Of a stretch of DNA of 32,118 bases, positions 676 through 11,113 are shown in pieces. The notes beneath the pieces were generated by a model. That model was not told where the DNA came from, did not search any database, and saw nothing but the letters and a program-made list of their open reading frames with translations. Both the position numbers and the translations under genes were made by a program. This stretch comes from Elusimicrobiaceae bacterium (GTDB lineage: Bacteria; Elusimicrobiota; Elusimicrobia; Elusimicrobiales; Elusimicrobiaceae), in contig JAGCMD010000077.1 in NCBI GenBank assembly GCA_017646765.1, forward strand, positions 1-32,118, read 5' to 3'. Position 1 is the stretch's first letter. Every line of letters begins with the position of its first letter.

Positions 676-705
676 AATATAACTGCTAACACATATATTC
701 TACAA
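676..705 (-). promoter_or_regulatory. possible promoter of the OmpA-like gene
   Basis: On the minus strand TTGTAG (705-700), an 18-nt spacer and TATATT (681-676) precede the AAGGAG ribosome site and ATG at 658. It overlaps the end of the upstream folK fusion gene. The -35 box is a weak match, so this is tentative. Confidence 0.35.
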
Positions 706-1689
706 AATCTGACAGGTTGGTGCCCCCTTTTTTTTCATTAGTTCCCGATACAGTTGATAAATAGGTTTGCCCAGCTGCGGGTGTACATAGTCCGGCAAGA
801 GGTATGAGAGCGGTTTAAGCACAAACTCCCGCTCTGCTAAACGCGGGTGGGGTATTTGTAGGGGGTATTTTTCGTCATTCTGCAAGAGCACCTGCTTGTC
901 GTAAAAAAGGATATCTAAATCAATGACCCGCGGGCCTTGCGGGAAGGTAGCCACACGCCCCAGTTTAGCTTCCAGTGCTTTTAGTTCCCTAAGCAATGCT
1001 ATAGGCGATAAGTTGGTATTTAAAATGGCAACGGCATTTACAAAATCGGGTTGATTGGTAAAGCCTTCCGGTTTGGAGGAAATATAAGGAGATACTTGTT
1101 TGACTTCGCCCAGCCTGGCTAAGGCTGTGATAGCCCGGTCTATATTTTTTTTGGCGGGGGGGATATTGCTACCCAGCCCGATAACCGCTTGTATGGTAGG
1201 GGCGGATTCCACGGCGGGGAGTTGTTTTTCCGGTGCGGGTGGCTCCTCTGACTTGGGAAGCGATAAATCTATCATTTGTGCCGGTCCGCACGGGATGAAC
1301 TCCGTAACCGGCTCCGGCGTAGTAAAATGGGCGGCAGGGGTATTTTCTCCTTCATATTCTACCCAGCGGTCGGGTTCTTCTGCCACGCGCACGCGGATAA
1401 TTTGCGCAAATTGTTTTTGTACGGTTTTAAAAATCCATAGGGCGATATTTTCCGACGTTGGTTTTTTAAAAATGGTATTTAGGTCTTTGCGGTGTAATTT
1501 TTCTCTAATATGTGTTTGTAGGAAGGCCTGTACCTCGCGAAAATCAATCAAAAATCCCTCGCTGTTTATGGGGCCGTAAAACGTAACTTGATAGGTAAAT
1601 TGGTGCGGGTGGGGCGGTTCATTTAATTGACCGTCGTGGGCGTGGATAGCGGTAAAAGTGCCGCATTGGGTTAGGTAAACATTTCTCAT
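700..1689 (-). CDS. folK: PTPS-like domain fused to FolK (HPPK)
   Basis: Two domains. Residues 1 to about 118 resemble 6-pyruvoyl-tetrahydropterin synthase/QueD: putative zinc ligands His16, His27 and His29, an ILE-Asp-Phe-type segment (LIDFREV), and KPTSENIALW. The catalytic Cys of the CxxxHGH motif is absent; instead Glu24-Pro-Pro-His-Pro-His matches the ExxHGH pattern of PTPS-III enzymes, which make 6-hydroxymethyl-dihydropterin from dihydroneopterin triphosphate in place of FolB. The usual Asp-His catalytic pair (LDHHYLN in E. coli QueD) reads LHRKDLN. A Pro/Glu-rich linker (about 118-164) leads to HPPK/FolK (about 165-329), with LGSNIPPAKKN, FPQGPRVIDLDILFYD and HPRLAEREFVLKPL; it pyrophosphorylates hydroxymethyl-dihydropterin. 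The start overlaps the folP stop by 4 nt (ATGA), so translation is coupled. The FolK assignment is firm; the role of the N-terminal domain is inferred. Confidence 0.9.
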   Translation of the reverse strand: MRNVYLTQCGTFTAIHAHDGQLNEPPHPHQFTYQVTFYGPINSEGFLIDFREVQAFLQTHIREKLHRKDLNTIFKKPTSENIALWIFKTVQKQFAQIIRVRVAEEPDRWVEYEGENTPAAHFTTPEPVTEFIPCGPAQMIDLSLPKSEEPPAPEKQLPAVESAPTIQAVIGLGSNIPPAKKNIDRAITALARLGEVKQVSPYISSKPEGFTNQPDFVNAVAILNTNLSPIALLRELKALEAKLGRVATFPQGPRVIDLDILFYDKQVLLQNDEKYPLQIPHPRLAEREFVLKPLSYLLPDYVHPQLGKPIYQLYRELMKKKGAPTCQIL

Positions 1690-2477
1690 TTAGTTTTCTC
1701 CAATTCTTTCCAAAAATTAAGCAGTTGCTTGGTTTCTTTTACGTCGTGCACGCGCAAGATGTCGGCACCTTGCTCCAGGGCAATTAAGTGCGCACCCAAG
1801 GTTTGCGGCAGGCGCTCTTTTGGCGTGTCGCCCGCTTGGCTTAAAAAACTCTTGCGCGATAAGGCCACTAACAAAGGTATACCTAACTTTTTGAAATAGT
1901 GCAAGTTTTTTAAGAGCGTATAATTTTGCGCGCGGTCTTTGGCAAAGCCGAAACCTACGTCAATAATCAGTTGCTCTTTGGTTAGCCCGGTGGTGGTGGC
2001 TTGGGCGATTTTTTCGGCCAGAAAATCGTACACTTCTTTTATTAAATCGGTATAGTTAGTTTGCGTTTGCATGGTTTGCGGTGTACCGCGCGTGTGCATT
2101 AGCACCAGTTGGGCTTGATGTTTTTTGACGAGCGAAAACAGTTCTTTTGTAGGGTTGCCGCTGACGTCATTGATAATCGTAACGCCGTTTTCCAGCCCCG
2201 CTTTGGCTACGCTGACGTGGCGCGTATCTAAGGAAAGCGGTGTTTTTAGGCCGCGCGCGCGCAACGCTTTGATGAGAGGTAACACGCGGGCCATTTCTTC
2301 GTCCTCGCTTACCGGGGTAGAGGTGGGACGGGTAGACTCGCCGCCGATATCCAACACGTCGGCTCCGTCCTGCACGAGCGTTTGCGCGCGCGCCAGGAGC
2401 GAGTCCAAGGTGTTGGCCGGGTTGCCGTCGTAAAACGAGTCCGGCGTAGCGTTAATAATTCCCCAGATTTGCGGCAT
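1686..2477 (-). CDS. folP: dihydropteroate synthase
   Basis: FolP condenses hydroxymethyl-dihydropterin pyrophosphate with p-aminobenzoate to give dihydropteroate, in the cytoplasm. The 263-residue length is normal for the family. Visible motifs in order are IINATPDSFYDG (pterin/pABA loop 1), DIGGESTRP (loop 2), SLDTRHVSVAKAGLENG, TIINDVSG, DVGFGFAKD and LSRKSFL (the SRK segment of the pyrophosphate site). The start has AGGAG 5 nt upstream. It lies 7 nt after the TraB-like gene and overlaps the folK fusion by 4 nt, so the product of the upstream enzyme in the pathway is made by the next gene in the same operon. Confidence 0.95.
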   Translation of the reverse strand: MPQIWGIINATPDSFYDGNPANTLDSLLARAQTLVQDGADVLDIGGESTRPTSTPVSEDEEMARVLPLIKALRARGLKTPLSLDTRHVSVAKAGLENGVTIINDVSGNPTKELFSLVKKHQAQLVLMHTRGTPQTMQTQTNYTDLIKEVYDFLAEKIAQATTTGLTKEQLIIDVGFGFAKDRAQNYTLLKNLHYFKKLGIPLLVALSRKSFLSQAGDTPKERLPQTLGAHLIALEQGADILRVHDVKETKQLLNFWKELEKTK

Positions 2478-3420: not shown

Positions 3421-4041
3421 CTATTTAATCATTTCTAAAAATTCACTGCGGACTTCCAACTTTTTAAACGCACCGCGAATCGCACTTGTAACCATAACCG
3501 CGTTGTGCTTTTCAATGCCGCGCGAACTGATGCACATGTGCTTGGCTTTGCACACGACCATGACGCCGTGCGGGTGGAGCGTTTCCATTAAACTGTCGGC
3601 AATCTGCGCGACGAGTTTTTCCTGAATTTGCAAGCGGCGTGCAAACACTTCTACGAGGCGCGCGAGTTTGGAAATGCCCAGTACGCGCCCGTTGGGCAAA
3701 TACCCAATGCTAATTGTGCCGAAAAACGGCTGCAGGTGATGCTCGCACGTGGAGTAAAACTCAATATCTTTGAGTACCACCATTTCTTCACAAGAGCCCT
3801 CTACAAACGTTTTTAACACATCTTGCGGTTTTTGGTGGTAGCCGCCGAATAGTTTTTTCCAACTTTTAACTATGCGTTTGGGGGTTTCTTGCAACCCTTC
3901 GCGCGACGGGTCGTCGCCGATATAGGCAAGCATTTCGCGGATGTTTTGCAAAATTTTTTCTTCGCTTACTTGATGTTTATGAGCTTGTGCAGTTGCACGC
4001 TTAACCGTGCTGACGGGTGTTCTTTTACCAGTTTTACGCAT
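3421..4041 (-). CDS. folE: GTP cyclohydrolase I
   Basis: FolE converts GTP to 7,8-dihydroneopterin triphosphate, the common precursor for folate and queuosine. At 206 residues it is of normal length. Visible are GDDPSREGLQETPKRIVK, FYSTCEHHLQPF (zinc Cys and His, active-site His), GISKLARLVEVFARRLQIQE, and KAKHMCISSRGIEK, whose Cys is the second zinc Cys. The ATG at 4041 has AGAGGAG about 11 nt upstream. This start places the first 25 codons inside the 3' end of queE, a 76-nt overlap in a different frame. I found no ATG, GTG or TTG closer to the conserved domain that would fit. It is the shared first step for both branches encoded in this operon. Confidence 0.96.
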   Translation of the reverse strand: MRKTGKRTPVSTVKRATAQAHKHQVSEEKILQNIREMLAYIGDDPSREGLQETPKRIVKSWKKLFGGYHQKPQDVLKTFVEGSCEEMVVLKDIEFYSTCEHHLQPFFGTISIGYLPNGRVLGISKLARLVEVFARRLQIQEKLVAQIADSLMETLHPHGVMVVCKAKHMCISSRGIEKHNAVMVTSAIRGAFKKLEVRSEFLEMIK

Positions 4042-4559
4042 AGGGCGATATTCTCCTCTTTGTTGCTTTCGGGTTGTAAATAAACCGTTGTTTTTTCGTT
4101 TTCGTAATTATAGTATTTTTTCAAATCTTCCAAATCGGTTTTTTCGTTGACGACAAGTTTGATAACGTCTGCTTTTTTAAGCATATTCTCGCTGACGTAT
4201 TTTTTGGGGGAAACACACACAAAGTCCGCTTTGCTGACGTCGCAATCGTGCGCGCCGTTTGTTTCAATATGTACAATATGCCCCGCCGATTTTAATACGT
4301 TAATAAGCGTAGGCAAATCTTGCTCGGCCGGCTCGCCGCCCGTTACCACGACCGTCTTGCACGGGTATTGCGAAAGCGCGACTAACACTTCCAAATTGTT
4401 CATCTCTTGGCCGCCGGAAAAAGCGTATTTTGTGTCGCACCACGGGCAGCCCATACTGCACCCGGCCAGGCGCAAAAACACGGCGGGCATACCGGTATGT
4501 TTCCCTTCGCCTTGGATAGAATAAAAAATTTCGCTAACCTTCCACAACGGCTGCGGCAT
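3966..4559 (-). CDS. queE: 7-carboxy-7-deazaguanine synthase
   Basis: QueE is a radical SAM enzyme that contracts carboxy-tetrahydropterin to 7-carboxy-7-deazaguanine in queuosine/preQ0 synthesis. The 197-residue sequence opens with VSEIFYSIQGEGKHTGMP, the family signature, then AGCSMGCPWCDTKYAF, which carries the CxxxCxxC cluster-binding cysteines. TVVVTGGEPAEQD, HIETNGAHD and the C-terminal LSVQLHKLINIK follow, all typical. GGGAGAG stands just upstream of the ATG. The gene overlaps queD by 26 nt and folE by 76 nt. queC, the next step, is not in the window. Confidence 0.95.
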   Translation of the reverse strand: MPQPLWKVSEIFYSIQGEGKHTGMPAVFLRLAGCSMGCPWCDTKYAFSGGQEMNNLEVLVALSQYPCKTVVVTGGEPAEQDLPTLINVLKSAGHIVHIETNGAHDCDVSKADFVCVSPKKYVSENMLKKADVIKLVVNEKTDLEDLKKYYNYENEKTTVYLQPESNKEENIALCVKLVKEHPSARLSVQLHKLINIK

Positions 4560-4878
4560 TATCGCTCTCCCACACTTCTACGGTTTTTAAGGTTAAATTT
4601 TGTTTTGTAAGTTCCGCGCTGACTTTATCAAATAAGTATTGCGCTAAATTTTCAGCCGTCGGGTTGGGCAGTAAATCGTTTAGAAACTGGTGGTCGGGCA
4701 AAAAGCCGTCCAACAGTTTTTTAACGACCTTAAAATCGCATACCATACCGTCTTCTTTTACCGGGCCCTCCAACACAAAAACGGCTTTCCACGTGTGGCC
4801 GTGTAAGTCGTGGCACGGGCCTTTGTAATTGGGCAAGCGGTGTGCCGCGCTAAACGAGCGGATGAGTTTAATACGCAT
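4534..4878 (-). CDS. queD: 6-carboxytetrahydropterin synthase
   Basis: QueD converts dihydroneopterin triphosphate to 6-carboxy-tetrahydropterin, the substrate of QueE. The 114-residue protein has the complete active site: FSAAHRLPNYKG (zinc His), CHDLHGHTW (CxxxHGH catalytic Cys plus two zinc His), LPDHQFLND (catalytic Asp-His), NPTAENLAQYL and a late Glu in VEVWES. It contrasts with the second PTPS-like domain fused to FolK in the same operon, which has lost the Cys and the Asp-His. GGAGGG lies 5 nt before the ATG. The start of queE lies inside its last codons. Confidence 0.95.
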   Translation of the reverse strand: MRIKLIRSFSAAHRLPNYKGPCHDLHGHTWKAVFVLEGPVKEDGMVCDFKVVKKLLDGFLPDHQFLNDLLPNPTAENLAQYLFDKVSAELTKQNLTLKTVEVWESDNAAAVVEG

Positions 4879-6376: not shown

Positions 6377-9300
6377 ATGCCCAAAAATATTTTTTCTTTC
6401 TTTTCTAAACAAAAACCGGCTGACGCTACACTCAAAAATGTACCGCCCGAAATGTTGGCTCTTCTGGAAGAATTGCCTGCAGCAGTATTGTTGGTAGGGA
6501 AAACAGGTTTAATTAGTTATGTAAATGCGTCTGCGGCTTCTTTACTACAGCAGGAAAAGCAGGCGTTGGTCGGGCAAGATATCAAGCAGTTATTGCGTTT
6601 GTCTGAGGAGCAATTTGCCGCTTGGCCGGATAATACTACTAAACACACGACGTTGGTTGATTTGCCAAAAGGGGGGGAGATTTGTTTACAAGCTTCGGCA
6701 AAAACCGTGTGGGATATGCCGCTACTAATGGTTGCATTGGAAGAAACGGCCCCCAAGACAGTAGATTTGACCGAAGTCTCTGCGCAAAGCGTGCTGGACT
6801 CCTTCCCGGATGCTATTACCGTACAAGATGAATTGGGACGTTGTCTGTTTTGGAACGCGCCGGCACAAAGACTTTTTGCAAAAGGTGCAACCCCCGCCGT
6901 CGGTAAAATGGTTTATCAATTATTTCCTAAAACATTATCGGCTTTTGTATACGGATTAGACGAAGAATTTAAAGCCGGTAAAATGCGTACCGAGCCGGCG
7001 CGGTTTACGTTTCCCGAGAAGGAAGAAGAATCCGGCGGCCGTTGTATTGCTATTAGCAAATCGTGGGTAGGACGGTCTCCCCGAATGTTGGTAACTAAAT
7101 ATGAGGACGTCACAAACCGCGTTTCCCGCCAAGAAGATTTAGAGCGCAGCCAAAAATTATTACAAGCTATTTTAGAGAATATTCCGTTGGGTATTTACAC
7201 GCGGGATTGTGATAAAAAAGTAACTTTTATTAACAGACAAGGATTGCAGATTTTAAACGAAACGCCTAACTCTTTAGAAGCGAAGCACGCCTACCAGGCT
7301 CAAGAGGAAGCTGACGGTTATACAGATCGCGAGAAACAGATTTTACGTGAAGGAAAAATTTGCGAATATCCGGAAGAAGTATATGTGGATTCTTCGGGGA
7401 AAAAACGAATCGTGCATGCTATAAAAGCCCCCTTGTTTGACGTGGGGCCTAAGCCGCTTGTGTTAACGATTGTGGAAGATATTACCAAACGTCACGAACA
7501 AGAACAGGAAATCCGGCGTGCTAACGGCTTTTTATCCGCCATTGTGCAAAATGCACCGATTGCGTTGTATGCCCGTTCACAAGACGGACGTATTTTGCTG
7601 CGCAATAAACAATGCGAGAAGGTGTTTGGTTCTGACGACGGAACTGGACGTTTGGAACATGAAACCGATGAACAAGTAGCGGCTTATATGAAACGCGAAA
7701 ATGAGATCTTGCAAACAGGAGAAACGATAGATATCCCCGAAGAAAATTATGTTTCTGCTGACGGAAAGAAGAAATTGTTGCACTTGGTTAAAGCGCCCGT
7801 GCAAGAAAGTCACTGCGTGGTTACCTTGGTGGAAGATATTACGCTTCGCAAAGCGCAGGAACGGGCGTTGGTGGAATCTAAAAATTTCCTACAGACAGTG
7901 GTGGATCAATTACCGGTTTCGTTATCGGTCAAAAATTACGAAGGAAAATATATTTTGTGGAATAAAAAAAGTGAAGAACTTTTTGGCGCGGCGGCCGGGG
8001 ACGTTATCGGCAAGAGCGCATATCGTTCGGACTTAAACAAAGAACAAGCCGAGTTTATTCGCGAAACGGATTTGCGCGTGTTTGAGAACAAAAAAGAGCA
8101 AGATATTCCGCAGGAACTTATTTCCTCTGCCAAAGACGGTATCAAAATTATGCACACCGTTAAAACGCCGGTGTTTAATGAAGACGGTACCCCCAATTGT
8201 TTGCTCATGGTGTCGGAAGATATTACGGCCAAAACCAAAATGGAAAAACAAATTCGCGAAGCCAGTGATAAAAACACGTTGCTGGTGGAAAATGCCCGCG
8301 AAGGCGTGGTGATGGTAGAAGACGGTAAAATTATCTACGCTAATCACGCGTTTTGTGAAATGCTGGGCGTTGAAACCTTGGAAGAAATCAAAGGTAAAAC
8401 GCTGTTGGAATTTTCCACGGAAAATCACCGGGTGTTTTTGAAAGAAAAATACGAAGCCGTGCGTTCCGGAGCGGACGACGGTAAGGATGCTATTGAGGCG
8501 CATTTCTTACGCAAAGACGGTACCAAGTTGGAAGCCAAGTTTGTCGCCATGCTGGCTAAATACATGGGACGGCGTATTGTGCTTGGATTTGCCAATGATA
8601 TTACGGCAGAAAACCGCGTCTTGCGCGATTTGAAAAACGAGCGGGATAATTTCCGGCGTGCCTTTGAAAGCAGCGTGTTACCGGCGTTTATTCTATCGCC
8701 ACGCGGTTACATTTCGCTTATGAACGAGTCTTGCCGCCAGCTGCTTGGCTTTACACAAGCTGATAAAAAATTCTATCGCAATGTGTATGTCCGCCCTGGC
8801 ATAGCTTTGCCGGTGCGTAGGGCCATGAAAGAGGGAAAATCGGCCCAATTAGATTATATACTTGATTTTGATAAATTAGCTCAAAAATTTCCGGGTCGTA
8901 TTAATAAAACCGGATTGTTGGAGTTGTCGGTCTCCTTTGTGCCGTTGTCTAAGCGGGATGCCAAAGACGGCTCCGTAGAGGCGGAATATATGGTTTCGCT
9001 TCAGTCTAAGGACGCGGCTATGCAAAAACCGGTTACGGAGTTGCCACCGCCTGCGGAACAAAAACAAGAATCTCAAGAAGAAATCCGGTTTGCCAAGACG
9101 GCCCAAGCGTCCGAATCGCTTCCGCCGTTGCCGCCTTTCTTGGCAGCCACGCAGAGCGGCCGGCAAGTGGACCGCGTTGTCCTGCCCAATAGCGAGCCGT
9201 ATGCCTTGTGTGATGATAATTTCTTTATTATGGAGTGTAATGAACTCTTCTGCTCGTTGTGCGGGCTGCAAAAAGATGAACTGACCGGGCAAGATATCCG

Positions 9301-11113
9301 GCACTTGTTTCACCCGGATGAGAAGCCCCTGGTGGAGCAGGATTTTGAGCTGCTTAAGAAAGAGGGGAAACTTTCCAACCGGGAATATACTATTAACCTG
9401 GGTAGCAGTTTGGAAACGTGCAAGGTGCGGTTGATGGCCGTGAAAGAAGAAGAGCACGGAGGCTTTTTGTTTGTATTACATAGTTTAGCCTTCCATACGC
9501 AAATTATGAAGATTTTAGAAGAACGCTCTGCCCAATACAGCGCGTTAAGCAGTGCCACGAACGGGGCTGTATTACGGGTAGGTTTTGACAATGAGAAACT
9601 GGGGCCGATAGAACAGCTAAACAACTGGCTGTCAAACAAAACCGGCTACCTGCATGAAGAATTAGCCCAAAAATCGTTGGGGGATTTGTTTGTGGAACCG
9701 GAGCCGGAACAACCGACATTGGCACTTACACTTTCCAAGGCGGCCAAACAGTTGGCTTATACAGGCAAAACATCCTTTATCTTGCCGCTTCGTAAGAAAG
9801 ACGGGAGCGTATTTCAAGCACAAGTAACGTTGTCTACTATGGATATTCCCATGCAGCAAGATGCGTTGGCGGTTGTTACTGATTTAACTGCCCAACAGGA
9901 ATCTTTGGGGCAAATTTCCCGGGAAGCGCAGGAACTTTCCGGCTTGCGGCAAAATTTACCCGGGCTTTATTTGCGGGTAGATGAAAAAGGGACCGTATTG
10001 GAAGTTTCTTCCAATTTGCCGGGGTTAGATAATGCGCAAGTTCAACAGTTCTTAGGCAAAACGCCGGACGCTTTTTGGCCGCAGGAAGCCGCTAATCAGG
10101 CTTTATTTATGATTAAAGAGGCCTTAGGGGTACACGTAACTTCTAATTTTTCGTTTGAGTGGCCCCGGGAAAATCAATCGCGTTATTATGAAGCGGATGT
10201 GATCCCGTTGGGGTCTACTCCTCAAGCGATTTTATGGGTAAAAGATGCTTCCGAAAAACGTATTTACGATAGTCGTTTGCATGAGTTATATCATATGTTT
10301 GAGCAAACGGAGCTAACTATTACCGAGCAGGTGGATAGAATTTTGGAAATGGGTAAGCAATTCTTCCAAGCCCAGGTCGGATTTGTCTTGCGCTTTCAAG
10401 AGCGCAAATCACGCCTGGAAAGTGTGGTGCTTTACACGTCGGAAAATGCGTTTTCTATTGAGCGCCATATGGAGTTCCCGGTAGAAGAGTGTTTGCGCGA
10501 CGTGTTGGATGGTTCCTTAACCTTGCTGCCTGATTTAGAGGGGCTCTCTTGTAAACAGTGTATGCATAAAGAGAAAAAACTAAAGTCGTTAGTAGCAGCC
10601 CCCTTGGTGGTGGACGGTAAGATAGAAGGGTCGTTGTGTTTTGCTTCAACCGTTGCGCGTGGCAAGTTTGATGCGGGTGCCGAGGAATTGTTGGGACTCA
10701 TGGCCCGGTTGCTGGCCCTACGCATAGAGATTCGCCAAGCTGATAAAATGCTTGGGGCGGCCAGCCGTGTATTTACACGTACCTTAGATGATGTACAACT
10801 GCCGGCCTTGCGTTTGGGGCTGGATTTTACGGTTACTTACGTTAATGATGCTTTTACGCAATGGACAGGTCGCACCAAGAGCAGCTTGTTAGGCAGGGAT
10901 CTCTTCCAGGAAATTTCCCGCTATGGTGAATCGGCCCGGCGGGCTTTACAAGAGTTATCGCAAAAATCGTCCGGATTTGATTCTTTTGAAATCAAGTTGG
11001 ACATTTTATTACCTACCGGTTTATATCAGGAAACAAAGTGGAACGTATTTGTTTGTAAAGATACGGCCGGTAAGGACGACGGATATGTACTAATCATCAA
11101 GCCCGGTCATTAA
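6377..11113 (+). CDS. giant multi-PAS/GAF sensor protein without output domain
   Basis: A 1578-residue soluble protein with no signal peptide or membrane segment. By eye it holds about eleven PAS domains, near residues 26-125, 138-235, 261-375, 385-490, 504-620, 634-745, 759-870, 939-1040, 1053-1170, 1190-1290 and 1477-1578, and a GAF domain near 1311-1455. A Pro/Gln-rich linker (about 881-930) separates PAS7 and PAS8. Several PAS units end in the characteristic VEDIT or NDIT segment (TIVEDITKRHEQE, TLVEDITLRKAQE, MVSEDITAKTKME, FANDITAEN). No histidine kinase (HATPase), GGDEF, EAL, methyl-accepting or DNA-binding domain is visible; the chain ends 2-3 residues after the last PAS fold. It presumably senses ligand or redox state and acts through protein contacts (inference). 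The start has GGGGGAG upstream. A strong bidirectional terminator follows. Confidence 0.9.
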   Translation: MPKNIFSFFSKQKPADATLKNVPPEMLALLEELPAAVLLVGKTGLISYVNASAASLLQQEKQALVGQDIKQLLRLSEEQFAAWPDNTTKHTTLVDLPKGGEICLQASAKTVWDMPLLMVALEETAPKTVDLTEVSAQSVLDSFPDAITVQDELGRCLFWNAPAQRLFAKGATPAVGKMVYQLFPKTLSAFVYGLDEEFKAGKMRTEPARFTFPEKEEESGGRCIAISKSWVGRSPRMLVTKYEDVTNRVSRQEDLERSQKLLQAILENIPLGIYTRDCDKKVTFINRQGLQILNETPNSLEAKHAYQAQEEADGYTDREKQILREGKICEYPEEVYVDSSGKKRIVHAIKAPLFDVGPKPLVLTIVEDITKRHEQEQEIRRANGFLSAIVQNAPIALYARSQDGRILLRNKQCEKVFGSDDGTGRLEHETDEQVAAYMKRENEILQTGETIDIPEENYVSADGKKKLLHLVKAPVQESHCVVTLVEDITLRKAQERALVESKNFLQTVVDQLPVSLSVKNYEGKYILWNKKSEELFGAAAGDVIGKSAYRSDLNKEQAEFIRETDLRVFENKKEQDIPQELISSAKDGIKIMHTVKTPVFNEDGTPNCLLMVSEDITAKTKMEKQIREASDKNTLLVENAREGVVMVEDGKIIYANHAFCEMLGVETLEEIKGKTLLEFSTENHRVFLKEKYEAVRSGADDGKDAIEAHFLRKDGTKLEAKFVAMLAKYMGRRIVLGFANDITAENRVLRDLKNERDNFRRAFESSVLPAFILSPRGYISLMNESCRQLLGFTQADKKFYRNVYVRPGIALPVRRAMKEGKSAQLDYILDFDKLAQKFPGRINKTGLLELSVSFVPLSKRDAKDGSVEAEYMVSLQSKDAAMQKPVTELPPPAEQKQESQEEIRFAKTAQASESLPPLPPFLAATQSGRQVDRVVLPNSEPYALCDDNFFIMECNELFCSLCGLQKDELTGQDIRHLFHPDEKPLVEQDFELLKKEGKLSNREYTINLGSSLETCKVRLMAVKEEEHGGFLFVLHSLAFHTQIMKILEERSAQYSALSSATNGAVLRVGFDNEKLGPIEQLNNWLSNKTGYLHEELAQKSLGDLFVEPEPEQPTLALTLSKAAKQLAYTGKTSFILPLRKKDGSVFQAQVTLSTMDIPMQQDALAVVTDLTAQQESLGQISREAQELSGLRQNLPGLYLRVDEKGTVLEVSSNLPGLDNAQVQQFLGKTPDAFWPQEAANQALFMIKEALGVHVTSNFSFEWPRENQSRYYEADVIPLGSTPQAILWVKDASEKRIYDSRLHELYHMFEQTELTITEQVDRILEMGKQFFQAQVGFVLRFQERKSRLESVVLYTSENAFSIERHMEFPVEECLRDVLDGSLTLLPDLEGLSCKQCMHKEKKLKSLVAAPLVVDGKIEGSLCFASTVARGKFDAGAEELLGLMARLLALRIEIRQADKMLGAASRVFTRTLDDVQLPALRLGLDFTVTYVNDAFTQWTGRTKSSLLGRDLFQEISRYGESARRALQELSQKSSGFDSFEIKLDILLPTGLYQETKWNVFVCKDTAGKDDGYVLIIKPGH

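Follow-up and report, generated by a model that had tools for sequence, protein, structure and literature searches.

We analyzed a stretch of an Elusimicrobiaceae genome (GCA_017646765.1; contig JAGCMD010000077.1, positions 1 to 32,118, forward strand), and this entire stretch of 32,118 nucleotides is referred to below as the window. One of its genes encodes a protein in which a PTPS-like domain precedes FolK (HPPK). The same strand carries, upstream of this gene, folP, a gene with no assigned family, folE, queE, and queD (Table 1). In the fusion protein, amino acids 16 to 115 matched the Pfam PTPS profile (E value, 5.7e-19; 68.7 bits versus a cutoff of 22.4), and amino acids 169 to 297 matched the Pfam HPPK profile (E value, 4.6e-34; above the cutoff). 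The NCBIfam folK profile TIGR01498, an equivalog profile, scored 122.6 bits (cutoff, 54), and the motifs of the FolK domain, GPRVIDLDI (including D257 and D259) and PHPR, are intact. No match to FolB (PF02152) was obtained for the fusion protein in the Pfam search. The Pfam and NCBIfam matches bear out a preliminary description of this DNA, which had recognized the joining of a PTPS-like domain to HPPK. That description had also placed FolE, FolP, and a canonical QueD in the same operon, and all three were confirmed there, QueD with its CxxxHGH and Asp-His motifs intact.

Table 1. Positions of the fusion gene, its segments, and neighboring genes in the window
Feature	Position (nt)	Strand	Basis or remarks
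PTPS-FolK fusion gene	700..1689	-	329 aa; start codon and folP stop overlap by 4 nt (ATGA)
PTPS-III-like (T-fold) domain, aa 1-118	1336..1689	-	Pfam PF01242, AlphaFold2, Foldseek
Active-site segment H16-x-H18...E24-P-P-H27-P-H29	1603..1644	-	Alignment
QueD Asp-His position, H66-R67 in fusion	1489..1494	-	Alignment
Pro/Glu-rich linker, aa 119-164	1198..1335	-	Low predicted confidence; pLDDT <50 at aa 136-149
FolK (HPPK) domain, aa 165-329	700..1197	-	Pfam, NCBIfam, motifs, Foldseek to HPPK structures
folP, dihydropteroate synthase	1686..2477	-	Pfam, NCBIfam
Gene between folE and folP, 310 aa	2485..3417	-	TraB/GumN-like by eye only
folE, GTP cyclohydrolase I	3421..4041	-	Pfam, NCBIfam
queE	3966..4559	-	NCBIfam
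queD (PTPS-I)	4534..4878	-	CHDLHGH and PDHQFLN, without active-site Glu; Pfam, NCBIfam

The product of the 310-aa gene had neither a Pfam nor an NCBIfam match, and the gene also occurs in a few relatives but not in most. The queE and folE open reading frames share 76 nt (positions 3966 to 4041), and the overlap is of equal length in 50 of 51 loci of the family. Elsewhere in the window (positions 6377 to 11113), a 1,578-aa open reading frame carries several PAS domains and one GAF domain.

The AlphaFold2 model of the fusion protein had a mean pLDDT of 90 (94 for the PTPS domain), and the linker was predicted to be disordered. In Foldseek searches, the PTPS domain matched 2OBA, 2DJ6, and E. coli QueD with TM scores of 0.84 to 0.87, and the top match of the entire model was the DHNA-HPPK protein of S. 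pneumoniae (2CG8). The N-terminal domain thus combines the profile match, the T-fold, and the three predicted zinc-ligand histidines of the PTPS/QueD superfamily (PF01242, COG0720). In comparison with the closest locus, that of Elusimicrobia bacterium UBA1202 (G025), the dN/dS ratio was 0.09 for the PTPS domain and 0.06 for FolK, and the linker evolves faster. The PTPS domain is therefore under purifying selection.

The active-site segment of the fusion contains His16, Glu24, His27, Pro28, and His29, and the QueD Asp-His position is occupied by H66-R67 in the sequence LHRKDLN. When 31 PTPS-III-like sequences from the family were aligned, F12, A14, H16, H18, L22, E24, H27, H29, F31, N42, E44, D49, F50, R51, L70, T78, E80, and E104 were invariant, and all 18 positions hold in a larger set of 55 Elusimicrobiaceae sequences. 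The zinc histidines (16, 27, and 29) and Glu24, to which the preliminary description had drawn attention, are thus conserved in 55 of 55. This includes the placement of the glutamate three residues before the first histidine of HxH, as in PTPS-III. The Asp-His pair was found in 0 of 55 PTPS-III-like sequences versus 48 of 48 QueD paralogues of the family. At the place of the QueD cysteine, no Cys occurs at amino acids 17 to 27 in any of the 55. The glycine of HGH, replaced by proline in the fusion as had been noticed earlier, is substituted nearly throughout the 55 sequences, and HGH is kept throughout the 48 QueD paralogues. Two residues are missing from the active-site loop relative to QueD, and the family has an additional invariant histidine (His18) and an invariant arginine (Arg51). 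Because these oddities are family-wide in 55 sequences, they reflect neither a sequencing quirk nor chance, and the unusual active site first proposed for the fusion is a real property of the family. The absence of the Asp-His pair had been described correctly; the LDHHYLN motif cited for QueD is the E. coli form, and the QueD of the window reads LPDHQFLN.

The fusion domain lacks the CxxxHGH motif and Asp-His pair of PTPS-I (QueD), and it carries HPH where the exact PTPS-III signature, ExxHGH, has HGH. Because ExxHGH fails at the glycine, the domain is classified, on its sequence, as a divergent PTPS-III variant and not as a plain member. Like the PTPS-III enzymes of COG0720 from P. falciparum and bacteria, it has a T-fold, three zinc histidines, a glutamate in place of cysteine, the company of folate genes, and a role in FolB replacement that is predicted here (PMC2229834, PMC5041015). 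It differs from them in the missing HGH glycine and Asp-His pair, the shorter loop, the invariant His18, and, in a few species here, the joining to FolK. In P. falciparum PTPS, His80 is retained and listed as catalytically important (PMC7546909). The best sequence match among solved structures was PH0634 of Pyrococcus horikoshii (2DJ6/2DTT; profile E value, 2e-20), which shares the fold and the glutamate (in WEDVHGH) but is a stand-alone chain that keeps HGH and Asp-His (LDHRNLN). The Asp-His pair is likewise kept in the other solved relatives within the alignments. QueD/PTPS-I proteins, represented by the QueD encoded in the same operon and by E. coli QueD (4NTK), share with the fusion domain the fold, the zinc triad, and the T/E/E residues of the pterin site, but have CxxxHGH and Asp-His, have no glutamate, and form a separate, well-supported clade. 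FolB-FolK enzymes (S. pneumoniae 2CG8; Bifidobacterium, PMC1971073) carry out the same two consecutive activities that are predicted here, with a T-fold domain before HPPK; their first domain is FolB, whereas that of the fusion is PTPS without a FolB match.

Among ExxHGH PTPS-III-like proteins elsewhere, the pair reads D-Y in genomes G239 and G280 (loci L143 and L131, respectively) and E-H in WOR-3 genomes (L205 to L208). The Asp-His pair has therefore been loosened in more than one lineage.

The nearest public relatives are Elusimicrobiaceae metagenome-assembled genomes from gut and rumen. The gene order queD-queE-folE-folP-ptps-folK was exact in 46 of 56 loci of the family, with small variations in most of the others. 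In relatives, the PTPS copy before folK is mostly a separate gene between folP and folK. Fused PTPS-FolK genes were found in 6 of 66 genomes of the genus (G000, which is the genome studied here, G025, G099, G256, G265, and G296), with linkers about 2 to 48 residues long. A search of the literature, of partial coverage, revealed no PTPS-FolK fusion. In a four-gene tree, from which G296 is absent, the five sampled fusions fell into one clade (support, 0.98) together with two unfused genomes. Such a clade fits one fusion followed by fissions as well as it fits several fusions. It is improbable that the domain arose by recent duplication of QueD within the family: in the tree, the PTPS-III-like sequences form a separate, well-supported clade that lies nearer to WOR-3 PTPS-III, on long branches.

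The absence of folB from the window, noted at the outset, extended to the genome (1.35 Mb; 95.7% complete): no FolB (PF02152) match exceeded the cutoff, the best scoring 12.5 bits. This match, obtained at loose thresholds, was rejected because it falls in a pilin-like region, among pilin-like open reading frames. A transaldolase-type FolB2, proposed earlier for bacteria without FolB (PMC1971073), was not found in the genome either. A phylum-wide set of 295 genomes contained 44 with FolB above the cutoff, all of the same class and from other orders, and none from the same family (about 79 genomes) or the same order. Because FolB is absent family-wide, a FolB gene missed in spite of the 95.7% completeness is unlikely.

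FolB and a PTPS with the active-site glutamate exclude each other in the genomes of the phylum that were examined. Glutamate-bearing PTPS accounted for 0 of 24 sequences from FolB-positive genomes versus 39 of 50 from FolB-negative genomes (Fisher's exact P = 2e-11, uncorrected for relatedness and excluding the 55 family sequences). A further hallmark of PTPS-III, occurrence with folate genes where FolB is absent, applies here as well. Other groups of the phylum, among them those of the Endomicrobia type, have a single hybrid CExxHGH protein; such hybrids are described as working in folate as well as queuosine synthesis (PMC5041015). Such a single hybrid, without a separate PTPS-III beside folK, was also seen in two genomes of the family, G127 (L119) and G133 (L128). 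In three genomes of the same order (G208, G221, and G212; L132, L134, and L139, respectively), FolB was not found and the sole PTPS lacks the glutamate.

On the basis of the conserved operon, the absence of FolB, and the mutual exclusion of FolB and glutamate in the phylum, we predict a FolB-replacing role for the PTPS domain. The fusion is very probably a two-domain folate enzyme, with a divergent PTPS-III-like zinc enzyme that replaces FolB at its N terminus and FolK at its C terminus. FolB replacement, already suggested in the preliminary description, is strongly supported by the lack of FolB and FolB2, the operon, the invariant glutamate and zinc triad, and the exclusion in the phylum. Counting against it are the inexact ExxHGH motif (HPH) and the loss of an Asp-His pair present in characterized PTPS enzymes. 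Judging from sequence, the most likely role of the PTPS domain is the production of 6-hydroxymethyl-dihydropterin for FolK, a substrate and reaction that we infer. The PTPS-III-like domain would supply the substrate of FolK, which would then pyrophosphorylate it for FolP.

In cysteine-type PTPS enzymes, the Asp-His pair presumably assists the cysteine in serving as the base. It is plausible that the pair was lost in a dedicated PTPS-III, since a carboxylate may not need it. By analogy with Glu38 of P. falciparum PTPS, Glu24 would be the base and, perhaps aided by the invariant His18, a candidate substitute acid/base, would make a cysteine supported by Asp-His unnecessary. In the P. falciparum enzyme, Glu38 is required for formation of the FolK substrate; the E38C and E38Q variants yielded only the conventional product, and E38L yielded none (PMC2229834). 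More tentatively, the Elusimicrobiaceae proteins may constitute a PTPS-III-like subclass of their own, in which dihydroneopterin triphosphate is cleaved without any Cys-Asp-His triad, with Glu24 as the base, His18 near the zinc site assuming the acid/base role of the lost histidine, and a shortened loop.

It is unlikely that the domain is instead a true aldolase acting on dihydroneopterin or dihydroneopterin monophosphate after dephosphorylation by a separate enzyme. The shorter active-site loop and the invariant His18 and Arg51 would suit such a change of substrate, but bacterial PTPS-III enzymes, in the work of Pribat et al. from 2009, reportedly act on the triphosphate and have little dihydroneopterin aldolase activity. 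A point in favor of the aldolase is the suggestion in a family review that some archaeal PTPS-III members might take the monophosphate (PMC5041015).

We also regard as quite improbable the idea that the fusion serves substrate channeling, in which FolK would receive hydroxymethyl-dihydropterin directly from the active site of the PTPS domain. A single polypeptide does unite consecutive steps, and such fusions occur in six congeners; however, 60 of the 66 congeners dispense with it, and the linker is variable in length, fast-evolving, and predicted to be disordered. The channeled hand-over put forward in the preliminary description thus found no support, and the fusion probably only ties two activities into one chain and is probably of minor significance in itself. 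The same description had considered a regulatory or binding domain. It is very improbable that the PTPS domain is no longer an enzyme and instead serves FolK as a module for pterin binding, regulation, or structure, with another enzyme supplying hydroxymethyl-dihydropterin: the missing Asp-His pair and HGH glycine and the joining to an intact FolK are compatible with such a module, but the zinc ligands, the glutamate, and the pterin-site T/E/E residues are invariant in 55 of 55 sequences, the domain is encoded by a stand-alone gene between folP and folK in most relatives and is under purifying selection, and neither a FolB nor a FolB2 candidate was found in the genome.

Replacement of FolB by PTPS-III is already known and is an established bypass (PMC5041015). 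New here are a dedicated subfamily without the Asp-His pair or the HGH glycine and with an extra invariant His18, as well as the PTPS-FolK fusion. If active, the two-domain folate enzyme would show that PTPS-III retro-aldol chemistry is independent of the Asp-His dyad of cysteine-type PTPS enzymes, and would bear on how the switch from Cys to Glu affects the reaction. The annotation signature ExxHGH overlooks this whole family of putative FolB replacements, which will be mistaken for QueD-like proteins or remain annotated as hypothetical. Within the phylum, FolB with QueD, the hybrid CExxHGH protein, separate QueD and PTPS-III, and the PTPS-III-FolK fusion make up a natural series suited to the study of the division of labor between folate and queuosine synthesis.

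The genome encodes FolE, FolP, FolK, FolC, and ThyX. No dihydrofolate reductase of the PF00186 type was found in it, though ThyX and FolC are present. Because QueD, QueE, and QueC are also encoded, queuosine synthesis has a PTPS of its own. QueC forms the C-terminal part of a 679-aa open reading frame elsewhere in the genome (G000:C68; L214:1474-3513, minus strand), the N terminus of which matches 2-phosphosulfolactate phosphatase (PF04029) and is connected to QueC by a long low-complexity join.
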